Origin: Diphasiastrum complanatum
Taxonomy: Eukaryota > Streptophyta > Lycopodiopsida > Lycopodiales > Lycopodiaceae
Length of the DNA: 64,000 nt
Direction: 5' to 3'
NCBI GenBank assembly: GCA_029204225.1
Contig: CM055108.1
Span: 13,763,955-13,827,954 of the forward strand
The notes under the pieces are model-generated. The model ran no database searches, was not told where the DNA came from, and saw only the letters and a list, made by a program, of their open reading frames with translations. A program made the translations under genes and the position numbers. Numbering within the stretch: position 1 is the first letter of the stretch; each line of letters starts with the position of its first letter. Positions 29,945 through 62,879 of the stretch are shown in pieces.

Positions 29945-30059
29945 ATTTGGCGGCCGGAAAAAAAAAAATTGGGCAAATTATTTCCGGCGCCCAAGTTCCA
30001 AATCCTTTTCCCTCTTTTTTTTTTTGAATCCTCCATTTGATTCAGAGAAAGAATTCCCA

Positions 30060-30250
30060 GCCATCTTTTCAGCATTGATTGGAGGCTGTCCAGCGCCCTA
30101 CTTCATCACATTTTTCAGCCATTGTTCCAGCAGAGTTTCAGCCATATTTCAGTTTTGATTGGAGGCTGTCCATCGCCCTATTTCATCACGTTTTCCACAG
30201 ATTTCCAGCCATATTTTCAGCATTGATTGGAGGCTGTCCAGCGCCCACTT
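30060..30250 (+). repeat. Threefold leader repeat
   Basis: A unit containing TTGATTGGAGGCTGTCCA followed by (G/T)CGCCC occurs three times (about 30074, 30158, 30222), separated by TTTCAGCCAT-like text. Element B has the same repeats and element E a related GGAGG..CAGCGCCC pattern. Confidence 0.7.
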
Positions 30251-30487
30251 TCATTCTCCTTGTGGTCACATTTTTCAGCTAGCTCTTCGCACACGCTTGG
30301 AGCTCTATCGAGAGGTATCTTTGCTGGTTTTTCCTTGCTTTCCACACCTTTTCTTGACATTTGTCATTCCTTTCTTGCTCTTAGTGTCGTTTGTGTACCT
30401 AAAGCGTATTTGGGGTGACGACAAAAGTCCGCTCCCTCCGATATTAAGCTTTTCTTACACTCTCTTCACTTCCTGCATTCCTTGACC

Positions 30488-32308
30488 ATGGATACTTCCC
30501 CTACATCTTCTGAGCCTCGCATACCGTCTTCCACTTACCTTGACGAAGTACGGCATGAATTCCGAGATCATCTTAGGGAAGCCATGAGTGATGTATGCAC
30601 TGATTTACGCCAGGAGTTACGAGAGACGTTCACTGCTCTTTCTGCCCAGATTCCTACACTATCATTACAGTCCAGTGTTTCTCCACTATCTCCACCTGTT
30701 CCCCCACAGCGTACATTTCCACCACTCGAGACTCCTTCATCTTCTGGTCCTTTGCCACGAGACTTTAAGGATAAGGTTCAGCTTACTGTGTATTCTGGGT
30801 CATCCGATGGGAATGAACTCGAGAATTGGTATTCTAAGCTTGAGACCTACTTCCTTATGTTTCCTAAGACTGGCATTCAGCGGATACATTTGGCTGCTCT
30901 ACATTTGGAGGGCCGTGCTGCTACTTGGTGGCGCATGTTTCGCCAGACGACCTCACACCCTGGCCTTGCTAGTTGGACAGAGTTTATGACAGCACTCCGC
31001 CTAGCGATGATTGATCCTCAGTGGCTTATTCGACAGCGCGACATCTTTCGCAGTTTATCTCACACTGGTGACTTGGCTGCTTATACGACACGGTTTACAG
31101 AGCTTTCCTATCTATTCCCATATATTTCTACATTGGAGCTCATCCCTCGCTACGTTGGGTCTACGAGGCGCACTCAGGTACGATGTTTCTTCTTTTTTTC
31201 CACTCACTCTTTCTCACGCCATCTCCCTTGCTACCGCACTACAGCACAAGTACTCTCCCATTTCTTCCTCTGTTTCTCGTCCTTCGCGTCCTTTCACACG
31301 TCCTATTTTTTCCTCTCCATCCTCTGCTAGTCCCACATCTGTCAGTTCACCTTCGTCCACTCTTCCTTCTGCACCACGTCCTCCTTTTTCTCCTCGTCCT
31401 ATTTTTGTTCTTCGCTACTCACAGCCTGAGATGTCTGAGATCCGTGAGAAGCGCTTATGTTTCAACTGTAAGAGTCCTGATCATATCGCCCGTGATTGCC
31501 GACAGCCTGCCACTGCTACTGCCGTCTATTTCCATGATGCTGACACACCTGATGATAGTCCTGATTCTGCCATATGCCTTCATATTCTTGATGATGACCC
31601 ACCTGTTGATCAGTTTGCCACACCCACTGAGCCTGTTCTTGATCCCCCTGATCTAGATGTATGCCATGCTCAGCTTGCTTATGCTACTTTGGCTGGTAAG
31701 CCGGGCCCACGCCATATCCTTCTTCCCGTACGTATCACTGGTCGTGAGTTTATTGCCTTGTTGACACGGGTAGCACTCACTCGTTTCTCAGCAGTCATAT
31801 TACTACACACATTCGTGCTATGCCAGTCACTACGCCTCATCCCCTGCATGTTGAGGTTGCCAGTGCACACTCTTTTCCTAGCACGCAGATGTATCAACAG
31901 CTTTCATATCAGATTGGAGACTTCCTTGGTCGGGCAGATTTTCATATTATTCCACTTACACAGTACGATCTTATCCTCGGTGCTGATTGGTTTGCATCCC
32001 TTGGTGCGGTTACAGTAGACCTCCAACAGCAGACATTGACATTCTCTCATGATGGTACTCAACATATATTTTCCGGTATTGATTCTCGACAGGACTATCA
32101 ACTTATTTCCGGAAAGCAGTTCATACGGAGCCTCCCGAAGGCTCACTGTACGGCTATTCTTTCTGTTCAGCCAGTTCAGCCTATTGCGGATGCACCACCT
32201 TTGCCACAGGTATTTTCGGAACTGTTGCGTGAATTTGAGCATGTTTTTAGAGAGCCGACTCAGTTACCACCTTCACGAGATGTCAACCACCATATAGACC
32301 TTGTTTCC
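30488..32308 (+). pseudogene. gag and protease of element A, two frameshifts
   Basis: ATG 30488 opens MDTSPTSSEPRIPSSTYLDE. The capsid-like region reads VQLTVYSGSSDGNELENWYS, LEGRAATWWRMFRQ and AMIDPQWLIRQRDIF. Near 31157-31170 the frame shifts by one base and continues LGLRGALRYDVSSF to the zinc knuckle CFNCKSPDHIARDC (31458-31499). The protease loop should read VDTGSTHS near 31757, but one base is missing, so the frame changes again; YDLILGADWFASLGAV follows. The first shift is also in element B, the second is not. Coding is interrupted at 32308 by element C and resumes at 38769. Confidence 0.88.
32304..32308. repeat. Target site duplication of element C (left)
   Basis: TTTCC, repeated at 38764-38768. 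Confidence 0.85.
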
Positions 32309-32808: not shown

Positions 32809-35800
32809 TCATCGGTCCTCGATGGCAAACTCTGGGTAAGACTTCTGCAACGCCTGTCGTGTCTCCCAGGTAGCATCTGACAACGGATGCCCTTTCCAAG
32901 TTACTAGATACTCTTGAAGGAGACGATTCTGTAATCGTCTTTGATCTAGGATTATGTCTGGCCCATAACCTGTGGTGTCTTTCTCCACAAGAGACACTAG
33001 ACCTTCCACCAGGCTATCGCCATCATGCAAACATTTCTTCAGTTTGCTAACATGGAATACTGGATGCACCTTGCATCCAACAGGTAGCTGTAGCTTATAA
33101 GCTACTTGGCTCACCTTCTTAATAATCAACCATGGTCCACAATACCTAGGAGATAACTTGGCGCACTTTCCTGTGCGTAGCACCTTCGACTTCGAAGGGA
33201 CTAGTAAATACACCCAATCTCCATTCTCAAATTCCCGATAGGTACGGTTCTCACGAGCATAACTCTCTGCCCTAGCTACAGCTTTGGACAAGTTATCTCG
33301 TGCCAACTCTAGCTTCTGCTGCATCTGAGCCAAAAACTCTACAACACTAGGTACCCTATGCGGAATTCCTATGATTGCAGGACTTAGTGGCCTAAAACCA
33401 TAATTGAACTCAAATGGACTCAATCCAGTGGACGCATGTCTCTTATCATTGTACGTGAACTCCAATAGCGGTAAATGCTTTACCCAGTCTGTTTGCGTAC
33501 TACTCACATATGCCCTAAGCATATCTTCCAAGATCTGATTCACTCGCTCTGTCTGGCCATCTGTCTGAGGATGCTCAGAGCTACTCATCCGCACCTGTGT
33601 TCCCAACTTGGCGAACACCTCAATCCAGAAATTTCCCGTAAACTTGGGATCCCTGTCAAAAACTATGGACTTCGGAAGACCATGTAACCTGACAATATTC
33701 TGAATAAACAACTCATCCACTTGCGGAGCTGTGACCTTCTTGGTCGTTGCGATGAAATGAGCCATCTTGGAAAACCTGTCTACCACTACCATAACGGAAT
33801 TGAATCCATTCTGGGTCTTGGGTAGCCCAACAATAAAATCCATAGAGATGCTTTCCCACCTTCCTGTAGGTATCTCAAGTGGATGTAGCAAGCCCGGAGG
33901 ACTTACTCTCTCGGCCTTGTTCACCTGACAAGCCGTGCAACGCTGGACATACTCTCTTACATCCCGCTACAATCGTGGCCAGAAATAATGCCTTCTCAAA
34001 AGCTCATTGGTCTTAGCAATACTAGGGTGCCCTGCGCAGGGACTATCATGGCATTCATGAAGTATCTTACGACGAAGATACTTCACGTCTGGCACGAAAA
34101 CTTTTTCATTTCTCAATAACATACCATCTTTCACGGTGTATGTTAAATATGTACTGGTGTGTGCCTCTACGGAAGCGACAGCCTTGACTGACTCTTCCGT
34201 TTGGTCGACTACTACCTTGCGCGCATTAGGCCACACACGCTGACAATGCGGGTCCTTTTCTTGAGCCTTCTTAATCTCCTCCATGAGACCACTATCAACC
34301 ACAGTAAAGCTCATCTGATGCAGTATACGAGATAGTGCATTAGCGACCACATTTTCCTTCCCTCTTTGGAAGCGAATTTCCAAATGAAATTCCTGCATCA
34401 GCTCGGCCCACCGAGCTTGGCGGCCCTTCAAATCTGGCTGAGTGCAGAAATACCTTAAAGTATGATGATCAGTGTACACATAAAACTCGGCGCCATATAA
34501 ATAATGTCTCCACACCTTGAGCGCATGTATAATCGCATATAGCTCTTGCTCGTGTGTAGGATATCTCTGTTGAGCTGGTGTCAACTTCTTACTTTCAAAG
34601 GCTACTGGTCTACCCTCTTGGCTTAACACTGCACCTACGGCAATGCCACTTGCATCCGTCTCTAGGTCAAAAGGTTTCTGGGTATCCACAATCTTGAGAA
34701 CTGGAGCCGTGGCCACAGACTCCTTCAAGTTTTCAAAACGTTGCTGAGCTTCAGCATCCCATCGAACCACGGTGTTGTTTTTCCTTAACTGGTCCGTTAA
34801 AGGAGCAGCTATCCAGGAATAATTCCTAACGAACCGCCGGTAGAACTTACAAAAGCCTAAGAAAGACTGTAATTGGCGTATATCGGCAGGCCTCGGCCAC
34901 TTCTTAACCACAGCCACCTTGGCTGGATCAACCGAAATACCCTCAGCTGTCACTACGTGACCCAAATACTCGACACGAGTCTTACACGACTCTGTCTTCT
35001 GAGCATTGGCATACAAGACAGAAGCTTGTAACTTGCCCAAAACGGTCTTGAGATGAATTTCATGCTCCTCAACCGCTTTACTAAAAACCAATATATCGTC
35101 AATAAAATTGACGACAAACTTGCCCATATAGTCTCACAAGACATCGTTCATGAGCATCATGAACGTGGCTGGGGCATTGGTTAACCCAAATGGCATAACC
35201 AAAAATTCATAATGACCGAAACGGGTTCGGAAGGCCGTCTTCTGGACGTCTTCATCTCAAATCTGTATTTGATGGTATCCACTTTTGAGATCTATCTTAC
35301 TAAAAATGGTTGCACCTTGCAACGCATCCAGTAGATCATCAATCCTAGGCATCGGATACCTGTGCTTTACAGTGATCTTATTCAATCCCCTGTAATCTAC
35401 ACACATCCGGAAACTACCATCCTTTTTCTTAACAAGTAAAGTAGGAAAGGCGAAAGGTGAATAACTTGGACGGATGTACCCCAACTTGAGATACTCCTCC
35501 AACATCTTTCTGACTTCCTCTTCCTCTTTTAGGCTCATCCTATAAGGAGGCCTACATACCGGACTTGCCCCTGGAACAAGCTCAATACGATGATCAACGT
35601 TCCGACTAGGCGCCAATCCCTTTGGCATAATACTAATTAGCACGTGTTTGAACTGCATGCGGATGGACTTCTCCAACTCATTTGCTGGGTCACATCTAGA
35701 CTGTAATGCAAATACATGTGCACTAGGGGATGCAAAAGTAAATGAAGCTTCTTGTGGTTTATTAGTGAGTGTGCTTATCTGATTATTACCAACATAAGAA

Positions 35801-37475
35801 TCAAAACTGGAATCAACATTCACATAACACAACCACAAATACTGAATCTCCATTCTCTTTATTTGCATATAGGTAACAAGAGGACCCTCAACAGATGGTC
35901 TCTCCCCCTTTAAGACATGAGACATACCCTCATGCCCGAACTTATACACATGTGATTTAAAATCTATAGCGGGCTGCTTACTTGCATGCCACCGCTTACC
36001 AAGTACAATATCAAACTTAGCTAGTTTAGTGATTTCAAAATCTAACTTCTCGGTATACGTCTGAATAGACAAAGATGCCCGAGAGATTCTTTCATCCCAA
36101 ACCTCTGTTCCCTTACCATCTGGCATCTCAACAGTATACCGGTAATCAGATGGAACAGTAGCCAAGTGAAATTTCTTCACCACACGAGAATTGATGATAT
36201 TATGCGAGGAACCGGTGTCAAATAAGACGAGCACTTCATGACCTTCCAGTTTTCCCCTCATGCGTATCAGTTCACTATCTGGAAACTAATAAGCTTCCCG
36301 CGCTTTGGTGGACAAGAAACAAACTGGTGCCTCTGGAACAAGCTTCCACACCGAAATAGTCATGACACGACGAGTGTCCTCATCATCACTTACCAACAAG
36401 TCATCCAGAATTTCCTCATCCTTGCCCTCATCTTGACGTTGCATAGTATGGAGCTTCTTGCCCGTACGTCGAGGACAATCTTTGAAAAGATGCTTGCCAA
36501 GACAGAAAAAACATAATTCGTCTTTCTTGGCCTTTTCCTTTTGCTCAGGACTGAGGGGAGACTTGTCGTAAGCACGACGAGCCATAGGAGATCCCGCCTT
36601 GCACTTCAAAGTCTGCTGCATCTGGATAGGATCCTTCTGCGAAAAGCCTTTCTGACCAGCTTGGCCAGACTTTCGCGAACCCTTCTTCTGAGGCCAGCTT
36701 GGCGCTCCAGACTCAGCCTTGGTACGCACATTACCTTCAAAGTTGAGAGCTGTAGCAATTGCCTCTTCTAAGGTCTTGCACCCTTCATTAAGCATCGAAG
36801 GCCTCAACTCTTCACGAAGGCCAAATATGAACTTGTGGACTACCAGCCACTCGGGAATCTCTTCCGTAATCTTGATAAGTATCTCACGATACCTGTCAGC
36901 ATATTCCTGCACCATGTACTGCCTCTGACGATGCAAAAGCCAAGCATCCGTCGCACGCACATGCTCATGTGGAGGAATAAACTGAGCTCTAAAAGCTCGC
37001 TTAAACTCAAGCCAGGTGGATGGAGCCTGGTTAGACTTCAACAACTTGCGCCACCACCTGTCAGCAAAATCAGTGAAATGGTAAGCAGCTTTGCGGACCC
37101 GCCAACCCTCATCAGTTGGGGACCGTTTCAAATCAAAATACTCTTCCCACTTATGCAACCACTGATCTACGATATCAGTATTGCGTTGGGGAGTGTTTCC
37201 AGTGAAACGGGTAGGTTTAATATCTTTGTCTTCTGGATAGGGTGGAGGTAACATAGGACGAACAGCAGAAGACGGATAAGGCGGAGCATACTGCGAGGAA
37301 GACGCATAACCACCAGCTACCATCATTGCTAGCATCTCTGCGACGGTCTTTTCCACACTATCCATGCGAGCTTGCACAGAAGGGGAAGTACCAGCAGGCG
37401 TATGGGCAGCCACTGTAGGCGGATTATGGGCAGGACTAAGCACAGGGCTGGGTGGTGGTGATGGAAGAGCAACGG
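32809..37475 (-). pseudogene. gag-pol of element C with four in-frame stops
   Basis: A single frame runs from near 37475 to 32809. In order: capsid-like gag (LHKWEEYFDLKRSPTDEGWR; TWLEFKRAFRAQFIPP), zinc knuckle CFFCLGKHLFKDC, protease [15 protein letters not shown] ([20 protein letters not shown]; catalytic FIDDILVFSK), RNase H (DASGIAVGAVLSQ; YTDHHTLRYF), integrase (HECHDSPCAGHPSIAKT; MDFIVGLPKTQNGF; EHPQTDGQTERVNQ) and chromodomain (QEYLVTWKGHPLSDATWE). Stops at 36286 (TAG), 35257 (TGA), 35134 (TGA) and 33967 (TAG) each fit CAG-to-TAG or CGA-to-TGA. The ATG near 37475 is out of frame with the rest, so the start is uncertain. All catalytic residues I could check are present. Confidence 0.92.
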
Positions 37476-38267
37476 GTGGACATTATGAAACACAACAGAG
37501 ACAGCACGGAATCAAGCTAAAAATTGGACTTATTGAAACACAGTCAGGAAAAGAAATGTTCAGCCTATTGACAATTTAGAACTGAAAGAGACAAAAGGCA
37601 ACTGGAAAGTAACAAAGCCAAGGACAGGTAGTACTTCCCTTGCGTCCTACGCTGGTACACAAGTCAGTAAAGAACTTAATTTGGGCACCAAATCGGCTTG
37701 AAAGTCGAAAAAAAAACAGGAAAAAAGCGGGCTGTTTGACGTCAAATTTCTTCCAAACGGCAAAAACTTTTCACGAACGGTCAATTAGCAGTAGGTCGCC
37801 CTCCTACTAGGCCCAATCTGAAACTCTAACAGCAGAAATCGGAGATAAATCAGAGAAGTTATGTCCAATCCAAAAATCTGACCTGTTTTGTGCTTGGAAA
37901 CCGACTTTTAAGTGAAACAGAGGCAAATCTGCTCCAAAACCAGCGTATAATGGCTCTAAAGGTCGCTATGGATACTAGAAACATGCTCCCAAAATCTGAT
38001 CAGGATCTGAGAAGGCTCCGGAAAGTTATGAGCGAAAATCCTTCTAAAAAAATGCGCTGGAGCATCTGATTTCTTTTGCCAAGTTTTTCCTCCCTCAAAC
38101 AGGTGTTTGCGGGCTCCCTGTATGCTGGAACAGCAGCGCTGGAGGCCCACCTTTCTTCTCCAATCTGTCTCCCACGTTTTCTCCCTCCAAAATCCTTCAA
38201 ATACAAGCAAAATCTGACAATTTCTACACTTTCTCTCTCTAGAACGACGTTTTCTCTCTCTAGAACG

Positions 38268-53477: not shown

Positions 53478-53482
53478 ATTAC
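53478..53482. repeat. Target site duplication of the TRIM-copia composite (left)
   Basis: ATTAC, matched at 56873-56877. Confidence 0.8.
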
Positions 53483-53626
53483 TGTTGGAATATCAATCCA
53501 CACTCTAGAGAGAACTATCAAACAGGGCAGATAGCTCAGTGGTAGAGCATCCCATCCGGTATGAGGGAGGTCCTGGGTTCGAATCCTAGTCTGTCCATCC
53601 ATATTATGATTTATGGATTTCTAACA
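53483..53626 (+). mobile_element. TRIM LTR copy 1
   Basis: 144 bp, TGTTGGAATATC to GATTTCTAACA. Contains a tRNA-like module (53525-53597), then a stem-loop ATCCATA...TATGGAT before its end. Confidence 0.85.
53525..53597 (+). tRNA. tRNA-like module in TRIM LTR1
   Basis: 73 bases. Acceptor arms GGGCAGA and TCTGTCC pair fully with one G-U, followed by A. The D arm is GCTC/GAGC, A box TAGCTCAGTGG, T arm CTGGG/CCTAG around TTCGAAT, B box GGTTCGAATCC (perfect). The anticodon arm pairs only partly (CCC/GGG) and the anticodon cannot be assigned with confidence; GGT or CCG are possible readings. I regard it as tRNA-derived, with pol III promoter elements intact, not as a proven working tRNA. Confidence 0.65.
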
Positions 53627-53742
53627 TGGTATCATAGCCAAGTTAGACCTAACAGTTCATGGTGTCAAAGCCATGGTTAGGTGGCCCAAGTTGTAGGGCA
53701 GGTGACAGCTAGGACCCCAACCAAGTGTGGCTTGAGGGGGGG
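53627..53742 (+). mobile_element. TRIM interior 1
   Basis: 116 bp: primer site TGGTATCATAGC (one change), a non-coding core with CATGG-rich text, and a final purine tract GAGGGGGGG. No coding capacity. Confidence 0.8.
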
Positions 53743-53884
53743 TGTTGGAATATCAATCCACACTCTAGAGAAAACTATCAAACAGGGCGGATAGCTCAGT
53801 GGTAGAGCATCCCATCCGGTATGAGGGAGGTCCTGGGTTCGAATCCGTCTGTCCATCCATATTATGATTTATGGATTTCTAACA
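53743..53884 (+). mobile_element. TRIM LTR copy 2 (precedes copia interior)
   Basis: 142 bp; identical layout to LTR1 but two bases lost in the T arm of the tRNA-like module. It occupies the position where the copia element's own 5' LTR would be expected. Confidence 0.85.
53785..53855 (+). tRNA. tRNA-like module in TRIM LTR2, T stem damaged
   Basis: As copy 1, with acceptor GGGCGGA and a 2-base deletion turning CCTAG into CCG, which breaks the T stem while leaving both A and B boxes. Confidence 0.5.
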
Positions 53885-53896
53885 TGGTATCAGAGC
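53885..53896 (+). promoter_or_regulatory. Primer-binding site shared by TRIM LTR2 and copia interior
   Basis: TGGTATCAGAGC; left of it is TRIM LTR sequence, right of it copia leader. Confidence 0.85.
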
Positions 53897-54423
53897 TCCC
53901 GGATCTGCAGCAAGCTTGTTTGTTGGCGCCCTACCAGAAGAGGAGCTTCTCTGCTTTTTGTTGTGAAATTTCAGCATCTTGCTGATCTTTTAGGTGGAGT
54001 TTGGATCAGCTTTTTTGTCTCTTTTCAGGTTGAAGGAGGGCGGCCATCAGAGGTCTTGGAGGAGCAATTTTTGGCACCCAAAAATCAGAATCTCAAATCT
54101 GATTTTTATGCAACCAGTTTTCAGCAAGTTTTGTTTGGAGGGGGGCGCCCAAAAATCTGCTACTGATTTTTGGTTGTGGTGTCTCCTTATCTTGCAGTTT
54201 TTGTTTTCAGGTTTGCATTTGTGTAGGAGGGCGCCCAAAATCCAAGAAACCCTATTCACGGTTAGGTCAACTTGTGGCTGGAAATTTGTAGATTCTCAGC
54301 AAGTAGTAGGGCGCTTTCAACAGCCCTATTGGAGTGTGTGTTGATCACACTATTTGGCTAACTAATTGGATTTCGGTGTAGGCTTCAATCGAAGCTAACC
54401 TAATTTTCAAGAAGCTGGTTTTT

Positions 54424-55865
54424 TTGTGCAGAAAGACAGCCATCTATCCATTATCTTTTGGGCATTTTAGTCTATGGTTGAAAAGATCTATCTTACCTCA
54501 TATTAGGTCTTGTAAGACATCTAAAAGTGCGTGGGATACACTTTATACTATGTATAGAGTCAAAAATCCAGCAAGAGTTGTGTATCTTAGAAATCAGCTT
54601 TCTTTGTTGAAGATGCAAGAAGGGGATCAAGTGACCAATCACTTGACGAAGATCAAGGATCTTCGTGAGGAGCTTCTCAATATTGATGAGATAATTGAGG
54701 ATGCTCAATTTGTTTCCATTACTCTCAACTCATTACCTTCATCTTATCTTCCATTTGTTTCATCTTTGAGTATCTCTCTTAGGGGATAGCAACTCTCCTT
54801 TGATGAACTTGTTGGGCTGCTTTTTCAAGAGGAGCAAACGAGGCAAAACTTTGCGGGTGACACTCAACAAAGAAAGGGAAGTGCCATTATTGCAAAAGGT
54901 ATGGGCACTTCATCAAGGATTGTAAGAAGAAGCTTGCGAAAGAGGAGAGTAAAGGAATTGATACTAGTGCTTCACTTGCTACTTTGGAGCAAGAGCTTGA
55001 AGCTAGTGGTGATCTCTTCAACCAAGACTATGCTTTTGTGTCTAATATTGCTTCTACTAGTACTTCGACATCTATGAGGAATTCAGATTCTGTTTTGCAA
55101 GTTGCTGATTTTCAGCCCATTGAATGGGTGATTGATAGTGGTGCTACTCGTCATATGACTTCTCGCAAAGAAGCATTCACTAAATTAGTGAAAGTGCAAA
55201 ATGGAAGTAAGGTACAATGTGCGGATGATGCATCTTATTCTATTCACGGAATTGGAATTGTAGCCATCATTTTGCTTAATGGTGAAGAAAAGTACATTAA
55301 GAATGTGCTTTATGTTCCGGGAATCAAGAAGAATCTTCTTTCGGTTTCAACTATGTTGAAGCAAGGACTAGTTGTTGAGTTCAAAGAAGATAAGTGTCTT
55401 ATCAAGGATCCTAAAAGATCACTCTTGATTATTGTTTCGGGAACGATGCATGCTGGCTTATTCATTATGGATACCTATGAGCGACGAATTCCCTTTACAT
55501 GTCTTGTTGCTTCTACATCACAATCATTGGAGTTGGCTGAATTGTGGCACGCAAGGTTTGGGCATCTCAACTTTGCAAGTTTGAAGAAGCTGAAGACATT
55601 TAATATGGTCGAAGACATTCCTACTATTGAGCAGCCGGAAGGGCATGTATGCGCACGGAATCCTGTTTTTCATGCAAGGACGAAGCACATCAAGATCCAT
55701 TATCACTTTGGTCGGGAGAGACTTCATGATGGCGACATTTTACTTGAATATTGTCCTACGGAGGATAATATTGCGGACCTCTTCACTAAAGCATTGCCTA
55801 GAGTCATATTTGAAGCTTTATGCAAAGCTTTAAATTTGATACCACGTGTTGGTTTTGTTACATAG
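54424..55865 (+). pseudogene. Copia element I: gag-protease fused to the RNase H C-terminus, internal deletion
   Basis: gag (54424-54789) shows the copia pattern RVKNPARVVYLRNQLSLLKM and LTKIKDLREELLNIDEII, ends at a TAG, and shifts frame near 54870. The next frame, open from about 54882 to 55865, holds the zinc knuckle CHYCKRYGHFIKDC, protease WVIDSGATRHMT, the GAG-pre-integrase region ELWHARFGHLNFASLKKLKT, and then at HVCARN jumps to RNase H/C-terminal text PVFHARTKHIKIHYHF, EYCPTEDNIADLFTKALPRV. Integrase, RT and most of RNase H (some 3 kb in a full copia) are deleted yet the reading frame is kept across the junction near 55660. The product cannot reverse transcribe. Confidence 0.88.
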
Positions 55866-55902
55866 TGAAGATTTCAGTTTTTGCATTGTCATTTAAGGAG
55901 GG

Positions 55903-56351
55903 TGTTAGAAATAAATGACTATGCTAAAGTTAATCCATAGGTTACTTTGACCCAAAAGGTCGAGATTTGTGTAACCATGGGTATTTAGTTATTTAGGCCA
56001 TCTTAAGTTTGTCTTAAGTTCAGTTGGACCCAATTTTGGTCATGTATTGACTCGTGGGTCCTTAGGGGTCTAATTTTGTTTAGGGGCCCTATCTTGACTT
56101 TTGGGGGTGCCCTACATTTAGTAAGTGGTTAACCTTAGGGTTTGGTGACATTTGGCCACATCCAGGTAGAGTACTTAGATGCTCATTGTGTATTCCATTT
56201 TTACAGTTTGGCTAAGCATTGCTCTCCATTGCTCTTGTTGTTGTTTTCCCTCTCTCGGTCTTAGAGTTGGGCGCCCAGCCTCTTCTCTCTTGTTTCTTGT
56301 AGAGATTGATTGATAACTAGATCTTGGTGACTTGACTCTTGCTTTCCTACA
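55903..56351 (+). mobile_element. Copia-type 3' LTR of element I, followed by TRIM interior
   Basis: 449 bp, TGTTAGAAATAAATG to TTTCCTACA, after a purine tract AAGGAGGG. Immediately downstream is TGGTATCAGAGCC and then TRIM interior, not genomic flank, so this LTR acts as the upstream LTR for the next TRIM unit. Its ends resemble the TRIM LTR ends (TGTTGGAATA...TTTCTAACA). Confidence 0.8.
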
Positions 56352-56467
56352 TGGTATCAGAGCCAAGTTAGACCTAACAGTTCATGGTGTCAAAGCCATG
56401 GTTAGGTAGCCCAAGTTGTGGGGCAGGTGACAGCTAGGACCCCAACCATGTGTGGCTTGAGGGGGGG
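56352..56467 (+). mobile_element. TRIM interior 2
   Basis: 116 bp; primer site TGGTATCAGAGC, same core as interior 1 with few changes, ending in GAGGGGGGG. Confidence 0.8.
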
Positions 56468-56611
56468 TGTTGGAATATCAATCCACACTCTAGAGAGAAC
56501 TATCAAACAAGGCGGATAGCTCAGTGCTAGAGCATCCCATCCGGTATGAGGGAGGTCCTGGGTTCGAATCCTAGTCTGTCCATCCATATTATGATTTATG
56601 GATTTCTAACA
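56468..56611 (+). mobile_element. TRIM LTR copy 3
   Basis: 144 bp, same boundaries as LTR1. Confidence 0.85.
56510..56582 (+). tRNA. tRNA-like module in TRIM LTR3
   Basis: 73 bases. First base of the acceptor is A rather than G and the D loop has G-to-C in the A box; the B box is perfect. Confidence 0.55.
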
Positions 56612-56728
56612 TGGTATCAGAGCCAAGTTAGACCGAACAGTTCATGGTGTCAAAGCCATGGTTAGGTGGCCCAAGTTGTGGGGCAGGTGACAGCTAGGAC
56701 CCCAACCAAGTGTGGCTTCAGGGGGGGG
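56612..56728 (+). mobile_element. TRIM interior 3
   Basis: 117 bp; primer site TGGTATCAGAGC and purine tract of eight G. Confidence 0.8.
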
Positions 56729-56872
56729 TGTTGGAATATCAATCCACACTCTAGAGAGAACTATCAAACAGGGCAGATAGCTCAGTGGTAGAGCATCCCA
56801 TCCGGTATGAGGGAGGTCCTGGGTTCGAATCCTAGTTTGTCCATCCATATTATGATTTATGGATTTCTAACA
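56729..56872 (+). mobile_element. TRIM LTR copy 4
   Basis: 144 bp; its end CTAACA abuts the right ATTAC duplication. Confidence 0.85.
56771..56843 (+). tRNA. tRNA-like module in TRIM LTR4
   Basis: 73 bases, same as copy 1 except a C-to-T in the 3' acceptor arm (TTTGTCC). A and B boxes intact. Confidence 0.6.
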
Positions 56873-56877
56873 ATTAC
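56873..56877. repeat. Target site duplication of the TRIM-copia composite (right)
   Basis: ATTAC, as at 53478-53482. Confidence 0.8.
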
Positions 56878-60462: not shown

Positions 60463-62275
60463 GGTCTATATGGTGGTTGACATCTCGTAAAGGTGGTAAC
60501 TGAGTCGGTTCTCTAAAACCATGCTCAAATTCACGCAACAGTTCAGAAAATACCTGTGGCAAAGGTGGTGCATCCGCAATAGGCTGAATTGGCTGAACAG
60601 AAAGAATAGTCGCACAGTGGGCCTTCGGGAGGCTCCGTATGAACGGCTTCCTGGAAATAGGCTGATAGTCCTGCCGATATTCAATGTCGAAAAATATATG
60701 CTGAGTACCATCATGAGAGAATGTCAATGTCTGCTGCTGGAGGTCTACTGTAACCGCACCAAGGGATGCAAACCAATCAGCACCGAGGATAAGATCGTAC
60801 CGTGTAAGTGGAATAATATGAAAATCTGCCTGACCAAGGAAGTCTCCAATCCGATATGAAAGTTGCCGATACATCTGCGTGCTAGGAAAAGAGTGTGCGC
60901 TGGCAACCTCAACATGCAGGGGATGAGGCGTAGTGACTGGCATAGCACGAATGCGTGTAGTAATATGACTGCTGAGAAACGAGTGAGTGCTACCCGTGTC
61001 AACAAGGGCAATAAACTCACGACCAGTGATACGTACGCGAAGACGGATATGGCGTGGACCCGGCTTACCAACCCAAGTAGCATAAGCAAGCTGAGCATGG
61101 CATACAGCTAGCTAAAGGGATCAGGAACAGGCTCAGTGGGTGTGGCAAACTGATCAACAGGTGGGTCATCATCAAGAATATGAAGGCATATGGCAGAATC
61201 AGGACTATCATCAGGTGTGTCAACATCATGGAAGTAGACGGCAGTAGCAGTGGCAGGCTGTCGGCAATCACGGGCGATATGATCAGGACTCTTACAGTTG
61301 AAACATAAGCGCTTCTCACGGATCTCAGACATCTCAGGCTGTGAGTAGCGAAGAACAAAAATAGGACGAGGAGAAAAAGGAGGACGTGGTGCAGAAGGAA
61401 GAGTGGACGAAGGTGAACTGACAGATGTGGGACTAGCAGAGGATGGAGAGGAAAAAATAGGACGTGTGAAAGGACGCGAAGGACGAGAAACAGAGGAAGA
61501 AATGGGAGAGTACTTGTGCTGTAGTGCGGTAGCAAGGGAGATGGCGTGAGAAAGAGTGAGTGGAACAAAAGAAGAAACATCGTACCTGAGTGCGCCTCGT
61601 AGACCCAACGTAGCGAGGGATGAGCTCCAATGTAGAAATATATGGGAATAGATAGGAAAGCTCTGTAAACCGTGTCGTATAAGCAGCCAAGTCACCAGTG
61701 TGAGATAAACTGCGAAAGATGTCGCGCTGTCGAATAAGCCACTGAGGATCAATCATCGCTAGGCGGAGTGCTGTCATAAACTCTGTCCAACTAGCAAGGC
61801 CAGGGTGTGAGGTCGTCTGGCGAAACATGCGCCACCAAGTAGCAGCACGGCCCTCCAAATGTAGAGCAGCCAAATGTATCCGCTGAATGCCAGTCTTAGG
61901 AAACATAAGGAAGTAGGTCTCAAGCTTAGAATACCAATTCTCGAGTTCATTCCCATCGGATGACCCAGAATACACAGTAAGCTGAACCTTATCCTTAAAG
62001 TCTCGTGGCAAAGGACCAGAAGATGAAGGAGTCTCGAGTGGTGGAAATGTACGCTGTGGGGGAACAGGTGGAGATAGTGGAGAAACACTGGACTGTAATG
62101 ATAGTGTAGCAATCTGGGCAGAAAGAGCAGTGAACGTCTCTCGTAACTCCTGGCGTAAATCAGTGCATACATCACTCATGGCTTCCCTAAGATGATCTCG
62201 GAATTCATGCCGTACTTCGTCAAGGTAAGTGGAAGACGGTATGCGAGGCTCAGAAGATGTAGGGGAAGTATCCAT
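60463..62275 (-). pseudogene. gag and protease of element B
   Basis: ATG 62275 opens the same MDTSPTSSEPRIPSSTYLDE as A. Capsid-like region, then the same one-base frame change near 61600-61620, zinc knuckle CFNCKSPDHIARDC near 61290, another shift near 61115, protease with intact VDTGSTHSF near 61000, and YDLILGADWFASLGAV at about 60780. It ends in [19 protein letters not shown] before the RT deletion; this text is the uninterrupted form of the site where C entered A. Confidence 0.9.
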
Positions 62276-62879
62276 GGTCAAGGAATGCAGGAAGTGAAGA
62301 GAGTGTAAGAAAAGCTTAATATCGGAGGGAGCGGACTTTTGTCGTCACCCCAAATACGCTTTAGGTACACAAACGACACTAAGAGCAAGAAAGGAATGAC
62401 AAATGTCAAGAAAAGGTGTGGAAAGCAAGGAAAAACCAGCAAAGATACCTCTCGATAGAGCTCCAAGCGTGTGCGAAGAGCTAGCTGAAAAATGTGACCA
62501 CAAGGAGAATGAAAGTGGGCGCTGGACAGCCTCCAATCAATGCTGAAAATATGGCTGGAAATCTGTGGAAAACGTGATGAAATAGGGCGATGGACAGCCT
62601 CCAATCAAAACTGAAATATGGCTGAAACTCTGCTGGAACAATGGCTGAAAAATGTGATGAAGTAGGGCGCTGGACAGCCTCCAATCAATGCTGAAAAGAT
62701 GGCTGGGAATCCTTTCTCTGAATCAAATGGAGGATTCAAAAAAAAAAAGAGGGAAAAGGATTTGGAACTTGGGCGCCAGAAATAATCTGCCCAAAAAAAA
62801 AAAAAAAAAAAAAAATTCCGGTCGCCAAATTTAGTGGAAGTACTTCCGCTAACTATCTGCTAAAGCTCCGCCAAGGAAA

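Follow-up and report, generated by a model that had tools for sequence, protein, structure and literature searches.

Composite insertions of a Helenus-type miniature retrotransposon and a Copia family in Diphasiastrum complanatum

Results

Architecture of the composite insertion

The window analysed here, i.e., the whole stretch of 64,000 nucleotides of Diphasiastrum complanatum DNA, contains at positions 53483-56872 a composite insertion in which a terminal-repeat retrotransposon in miniature (TRIM) of the Helenus type and a Copia retrotransposon lie within one target-site duplication. The order of the parts is LTR1-INT-LTR2-[Copia interior 53885-55902]-[Copia LTR 55903-56351]-INT-LTR3-INT-LTR4, where LTR stands for long terminal repeat and INT for the TRIM interior. 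The first-pass annotation had presented the entire span as a TRIM. This was correct in that a TRIM with two LTRs, primer site, polypurine tract and 5-bp duplications is present, but 2.0 kb of Copia interior and a Copia LTR of 449 bp are also part of the span, and the ATTAC duplication (53478-53482, 56873-56877) bounds the whole composite, not a single TRIM. The features, with the evidence for each in brackets, were:

53478..53482, no strand: left copy of the target-site duplication, ATTAC (sequence; same 5 bases at 56873-56877)
53483..53626, plus strand: TRIM LTR 1, 144 bp (sequence)
53525..53597, plus strand: tRNA-like module of LTR 1, with A and B boxes (ARAGORN; Rfam 52.4 bits)
53627..53742, plus strand: TRIM interior 1, 116 bp, from primer site TGGTATCATAGCC to polypurine tract GAGGGGGGG (sequence)
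53743..53884, plus strand: TRIM LTR 2, 142 bp, directly abutting the Copia interior (sequence)
53785..53855, plus strand: tRNA-like module of LTR 2, shorter by two bases than those of the other LTRs (Rfam 35.3 bits)
53885..55902, plus strand: Copia interior, internally deleted, with primer site, gag/pol remnants and polypurine tract AAGGAGGG (tiles and Pfam)
55903..56351, plus strand: Copia LTR, 449 bp, TGTTAG...CCTACA, directly abutting a TRIM interior (genome matches; ordinary Copia context in L075-L081)
56352..56467, plus strand: TRIM interior 2, 116 bp, primer site TGGTATCAGAGCCA (sequence)
56468..56611, plus strand: TRIM LTR 3, 144 bp (sequence)
56510..56582, plus strand: tRNA-like module of LTR 3, with one A-box change (ARAGORN; Rfam)
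56612..56728, plus strand: TRIM interior 3, 117 bp (sequence)
56729..56872, plus strand: TRIM LTR 4, 144 bp (sequence)
56771..56843, plus strand: tRNA-like module of LTR 4 (ARAGORN; Rfam)
56873..56877, no strand: right copy of the target-site duplication, ATTAC (sequence)

All four LTRs start with TGTTGG and end with CTAACA, and the first 28 LTR bases occurred four times in the window with 0 mismatches, compared with 0 occurrences in 100 shuffles allowing up to 3 mismatches. The TRIM interiors start with TGGTATCAKAGCC and end with seven or eight consecutive G; the primer site of interior 1, TGGTATCATAGCC, differs by one change from the usual TGGTATCAGAGCC. Tiles of 250 bases taken from 53885..55902 matched the Copia interior of loci L040 and L082, and an open reading frame (ORF) at 54861-55865 displayed the Pfam domains Pol_BBD and gag_pre-integrs.

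The TRIM and Copia families in the genome

A genome of 1,744,706,496 bases in 5176 contigs was searched. The TRIM LTR query gave 1092 first-look candidates, the best 40 scored showing 99-100% identity over the full length (13 of them 100%), and the interior query gave 1124, with 98-100% identity in the best 40 scored; candidate numbers from these searches are not copy numbers. Loci were fetched for all 80 scored hits, and 76 arrays were sorted by their flanks into 62 groups, a procedure that erroneously fused L040 with L058, whose duplications are different. Fetched copies were chosen by likeness to the window copy, so the sample favours intact elements.

The simple LTR-INT-LTR element, at about 404 bp within the 1000-bp limit for TRIMs and with a non-coding interior, was represented by 33 flank-distinct copies. 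Perfect 5-bp duplications bounded 22 of these 33, 4 of 5 bases agreed in six more and no duplication was present in five, mismatched flank pairs used as control agreeing in 1/1056; the LTR boundaries and target duplications proposed for the window thus hold in other genome copies. The two LTRs of these 33 copies differed by a median of 2.8% and were identical in none, which indicated that the copies are not brand new. Primer site TGGTATCAGAGCCA was exact in 54 of 66 interior copies. We are dealing with a new Helenus-type TRIM family, recurrent in the host genome.

LTRs without most of the tRNA module, flanked by intact neighbouring LTRs, were found at L011:1617-1676, L046:1601-1660 and L043:1280-1361, L011 and L046 resembling one duplicated locus. 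The possibility that RNase P/Z cuts the transcript and so removes the tRNA precisely was set aside on the basis of these loci, given that the breakpoints in L011/L046 and L043 differ and fall off the module ends; ordinary deletions seem to be enough.

For the Copia family, the LTR query 55904-56351 (448 bp) yielded 1918 candidates; identity was 96-100% in the best 40 scored, of which 36 spanned the whole query. Ordinary copies have the Copia interior immediately after the Copia LTR (L075-L077, L080), and 3' LTRs border on flanking DNA (L078, L079, L081); L075 and L076 are seemingly one duplicated locus, and L077 and L080 another. Unaltered ORF pieces from L082 matched gag_2, gag_pre-integrs, rve and RVT_2, which identified the family as Copia. 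ARAGORN found no tRNA in the Copia loci L075, L077, L078, L079 and L081.

Composites of the TRIM and the Copia family

TRIM/Copia composites with both ends seen and perfect duplications amounted to eight, and the eight duplications were all different:

L040: TRIM-ended, LTR-Copia interior-Copia LTR-INT-LTR, duplication GATAC
L058 with L082: TRIM-ended, LTR-Copia interior-Copia LTR-INT-LTR, duplication ATATA
Window: TRIM-ended with additional TRIM units, duplication ATTAC
L066 with L084: Copia-ended, Copia LTR-INT-LTR-Copia interior-Copia LTR, duplication GACTG, about 2.4 kb of the middle unfetched
L068 with L085: Copia-ended, Copia LTR-INT-LTR-Copia interior-Copia LTR, duplication AAGCA, about 2.4 kb of the middle unfetched
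L026: shortened composite, duplication TAGAT
L035:99-2744: shortened composite with seven arrayed TRIM LTRs and a fragment of Copia interior, duplication GTGCT
L059: shortened composite whose left end retains no more of the Copia LTR than its first 35 bp, duplication GTTAT

By our own count, 11 of the 15 TRIM/Copia joints in these composites were located exactly at the primer site. The 12-nt primer site TGGTATCAGAGC opens both interiors and was the longest exact match between TRIM and Copia, the next one being 8 nt, when the TRIM pieces were compared with the Copia LTR and with the Copia interior over its first 500 and last 400 bases. A 100-base query laid over the junction of TRIM LTR and Copia interior gave 41 matches (duplicates kept), 39 of which extended from base 13 or before to base 97 or beyond; one of the other two reached base 65 and one covered the LTR side alone. 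Upstream of the TRIM LTR, 10 sampled junction loci presented Copia LTR-INT (three), no element piece in about 240 bases (six) or an inverted TRIM interior (one). Among the TRIM interior copies in the 39 loci fetched for the interior-query hits, the LTR of this Copia family was found directly upstream in four (L058, L065, L066, L068), neither LTR in three (L059, L060, L072) and the TRIM LTR in the rest. The outer TRIM LTRs showed 0 differences in L040 and in L026 and 1 in the window, where the other LTR pairs differed at 2-4 positions; this near identity of the outer LTRs favours one recent event. L028 offers a case of ordinary insertion of the TRIM into Copia, with the duplication ATTCT as judged by eye, but such an insertion does not fit joints at the primer site.

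Two further arrangements were noted. L090 (G000:C6:14185220-14185620), one of the loci retrieved with the junction query, carries a TRIM LTR immediately preceded by a TRIM interior in inverted, head-to-head orientation. In L002:1646-2011 and in L007, a diverged Copia LTR (79% identical) precedes a TRIM interior that is broken at base 85; these may correspond to an older fusion with a Copia subfamily.

The tRNA-like module

The first-pass annotation had described four LTRs of 142-144 bp, each with a tRNA-like module. Both ARAGORN (4/4) and the Rfam model RF00005 (4/4) recovered these modules, with Rfam scores of 52.4, 50.1, 40.0 and 35.3 bits, all above the gathering score of 29, so that the covariance model does not score them as noise, and the A-box change announced for the third copy is present in the sequence. 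At gathering threshold, Rfam gave four tRNA matches and no 5S rRNA match in the window. The module calls bear out the view that a tRNA-like unit with A and B boxes occupies the place of the 5S sequence in Cassandra.

Variation in the module was followed in 107 complete LTRs, for which the first locus in every one of the 62 flank groups was used together with L082. ARAGORN called a tRNA in 102 of them, 91 as Thr-GGT, and assigned several isotypes; at such a rate, TRIMs with tRNA-bearing LTRs will inflate tRNA gene counts. The exact A-box string TAGCTCAGTGG and the exact B-box string GGTTCGAATCC were each present in 88/107 LTRs, and the family displays the boxes that characterize Helenus (A box TRGCY, YGG; B box GGTTC).

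In the predicted RNA fold the acceptor, D and T arms were formed, and no unusual folding energy was seen in the four sequences folded (z from -0.60 to -1.17). The hairpin ATCCATA...TATGGAT, which had been pointed out near the LTR end, was retrieved when the entire LTR was folded at minimum energy, again with unremarkable energy. The longest exact complementarity between the LTR 1 module and the primer site was 4 nt, so the tRNA-like module is not the primer.

A second TRIM family with tRNA-like LTRs

A second, diverged TRIM family with tRNA-like LTRs was first met at L022:477-838 (G000:C6:7454476 onward). Its genome search gave 659 candidates, the best 40 scored comprising 78 matches, and the seven loci fetched (L097-L103) were ones in which LTR hits occurred as a pair. 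The spacing was 225-226 bp, with an LTR of 153 bp and an interior of 73 bp in the two copies measured; perfect 5-bp duplications were present at 7/7 fetched loci, and 14/14 modules exceeded the Rfam threshold (39.6-57.8 bits).

Stems were compared between families in 14 chosen modules, six from family 1 and eight from family 2, counting acceptor, D and T stems and excluding the anticodon arm, for which no single pairing register exists in both. The D stem was invariant and the A- and B-box cores nearly so. In the acceptor stem, two pairs were altered on both sides and one pair was broken in family 2. The number of doubly changed pairs was not above shuffles (276/500 reach it), whereas the number of doubly changed cells was (0/500). 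This suggests that the tRNA-like fold may have been kept in both families, but it amounts effectively to one comparison between two families, and descent from two different tRNA genes would give the same pattern.

Other repeats in the window

An inverted pair at 29969-31646 and 61117-62794 (1678 bp, 100% identity, 29 kb apart) is one of 15 inverted pairs listed. Gypsy-type pieces occupy 32809-37482 on the minus strand, with gag, RT/RNase H and chromodomain integrase in separate ORFs.

Discussion

TRIMs with tRNA-like LTRs have already been named Helenus, so the kind is not new. The first-pass annotation had left this point to be settled. Helenus belongs to a wider class, TRIMp3 (Kojima 2024, PMC10886601), whose sole listed plant host for Helenus is Selaginella moellendorffii (LTR 120, interior 85); this and the comparisons that follow refer to the available parts of the cited texts. 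According to the same source, pol III transcription of Helenus itself has not been validated, how the dependence of a TRIM on its partner is maintained is not known, and nothing indicates which element is the partner of Cassandra. The family described here shares with Helenus the tRNA-like LTR sequence with A and B boxes, the primer site and the polypurine tract, as well as the 5-bp duplications of plant and fungal members, a probable Copia partner (proposed in fungi) and tandem arrays (seen in zebrafish). In contrast, fusions with a partner, present here, are unmentioned in the available text of PMC10886601, where the term 'chimer' is absent. Cassandra resembles our family in the RNA polymerase III (pol III) unit of the LTR, the primer-site pattern TGGTATCAGAGC and tandem arrays, and differs in carrying 5S rRNA instead of a tRNA in its LTR (PMC7215508).

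The complex LTR insertions of Sabot and Schulman 2007 (PMC1950507) also have at least three LTRs, one target duplication and outer LTRs that are alike; they were attributed to template switching through R-region homology between RNAs of like elements, whereas here the joints are mostly at the primer site. An R-region switch would have little to work on, as TRIM and Copia match over 12 nt and all other matches are of 8 nt or less. Tandemly arrayed TRIMs (Gao 2016, PMC4717578) likewise form LTR-interior arrays with duplications, but the term 'trna' does not occur in the available text, and related large elements were found there through similarity of LTR and interior. No other plant TRIMs with tRNA-bearing LTRs, and no primer-site fusions of TRIM and Copia, appeared among the matches listed in the open-licence literature, which is weak evidence. 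What is added here is the repeated fusion with one Copia family, mostly at the sole substantial stretch that they were found to share, and the occurrence of two tRNA-LTR families in a second plant host.

A TRIM consisting of LTR (144), interior (116) and LTR (144) is too short to encode the proteins it needs. It is probably transcribed by pol III, judging from its promoter boxes; transcription would start near the module in the 5' LTR and would read through the interior and the 3' LTR, since no run of four T stands in the way. The fusions lead us to infer that the RNA enters particles of one Copia family. Priming would take place at TGGTATCAGAGC, a site also present in that Copia, presumably by initiator-methionine tRNA, whose 3' end we take to match it. 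Copia reverse transcriptase would then copy the RNA and Copia proteins would insert the product, which is bounded by the 5-bp duplication observed. As little else is shared, TRIM and Copia DNAs would sometimes be joined at the primer site; joining would place a TRIM LTR before a Copia interior and a Copia LTR before a TRIM interior, giving the mirrored TRIM-ended and Copia-ended elements, each within one duplication, that are found in the genome.

The eight composites and their primer-site joints point to this Copia family as the partner of the TRIM, i.e., the one that would mobilise it in trans, Copia and Gypsy elements being the partners associated with Helenus. We consider it likely, on the whole, that a Helenus-type TRIM transcribed by pol III is mobilised by its Copia partner and joined to it at the primer site. 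As to the step at which the joint forms, reverse transcription seems the most likely one, at about even odds: plus-strand strong-stop DNA made from one element would anneal to the primer-site end of the minus strand of the other. More tentatively, and with somewhat less than even confidence, a pol III TRIM RNA and a pol II Copia RNA sharing little but the primer site may be co-packed, strong-stop DNA of one completing the other. T runs occur in the Copia interior soon after the joint in TRIM-ended composites, where a pol III transcript should consequently stop; such composites are probably dead ends.

Several observations weigh against mobilisation by this Copia with joining at the primer site. 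Four of the 15 joints are off that site: L068 has one about 12 bases upstream, and L026, L035 and L059 have one each. A joint in L042 lies inside the integrase region; joining is therefore not confined to the primer site, L068 being slightly off it and L042 far from it. In L065 a mixed joint is present and its far end was not found, no duplication was found in L002/L007, and the far end of L042 is beyond the fetched sequence. In L035 (6 differences) and L056 (10), other LTR pairs are more similar than the outer one, and the outer pair of L058 with L082 differs at 4 positions. The upstream scan covered two LTRs alone, those of the TRIM and of this Copia family, so that specificity for the partner is not established by it. 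With regard to pol III, the absence of TTTT stressed by the first-pass annotation was confirmed in the LTR and interior of the window but is unsurprising by chance (shuffles lack it with P 0.46 for 260 bp and 0.24 for the 402-bp unit), and TTTT is present in 5/107 LTR copies; selection against TTTT was thus not significant. Per-site variation in the 107 LTRs was 1.1% before the module, 2.4% within it and 1.2% after it. Since the module varies more than its flanks, extra constraint within the family is not seen, and selection on the module, tested by this comparison, gave no sign; CpG decay may account for the higher variation.

The main alternative for the joining step is an origin after insertion, in which a cDNA or circle of one element would have annealed, by an integrase-independent, Rad52-type process, at the primer site of a chromosomal copy of the other, whose older duplication was kept. 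Single-strand annealing there predicts the same ends, both mirrored forms and the retained duplication, and the unequal outer LTRs of L056 and L035 fit it as well. Integrase (IN)-defective Tf1 likewise inserts mostly at the primer binding site (PBS), the polypurine tract (PPT) or full-length elements, making tandem copies, as reported in the available part of PMC12786077. However, annealing would have had to operate on the 12 nt alone found in common between TRIM and Copia, and the outer TRIM LTRs are identical in L040 and L026, as one recent event predicts, although a young target would look alike; we regard this origin as possible, on the doubtful side. That the mixed structures are artefacts of assembly or of segmental duplication of repeats is very improbable: several hits duplicate each other and some lie on small contigs, but the eight composites have eight different perfect duplications, and 10 more junction loci lie in different upstream sequence or with Copia LTR-INT.

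The tRNA-like unit, in turn, might be a passenger, an old SINE or tRNA insertion trapped in an LTR that is transcribed by pol II. The lack of excess conservation within the family, the several isotypes assigned by ARAGORN and an anticodon arm without one pairing register in the two families, as in a non-functional tRNA, are in line with this. In two diverged families of this genome, nevertheless, the LTR still carries the module, its D stem is identical and its A- and B-box cores almost so, and two acceptor pairs are doubly changed, a result in which the cells are above shuffles (0/500), the pairs are not (276/500) and one pair is broken in family 2. Taking both sides together, we find a passenger unlikely.

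The TRIM and the Copia family, between which no similarity was found beyond the primer site, are yet joined there within single target duplications. If TRIM and Copia RNAs are indeed co-packed, with strong-stop DNA of one completing the other, a common tRNA primer would suffice for parasitism on a retrotransposon; the mixed elements would then be traces, left in the genome, of intermolecular second-strand transfer and would name the partner of an orphan TRIM. Listing the sequences upstream of its primer site would offer a general route to the partner of a TRIM, and the shared-primer idea becomes directly testable.

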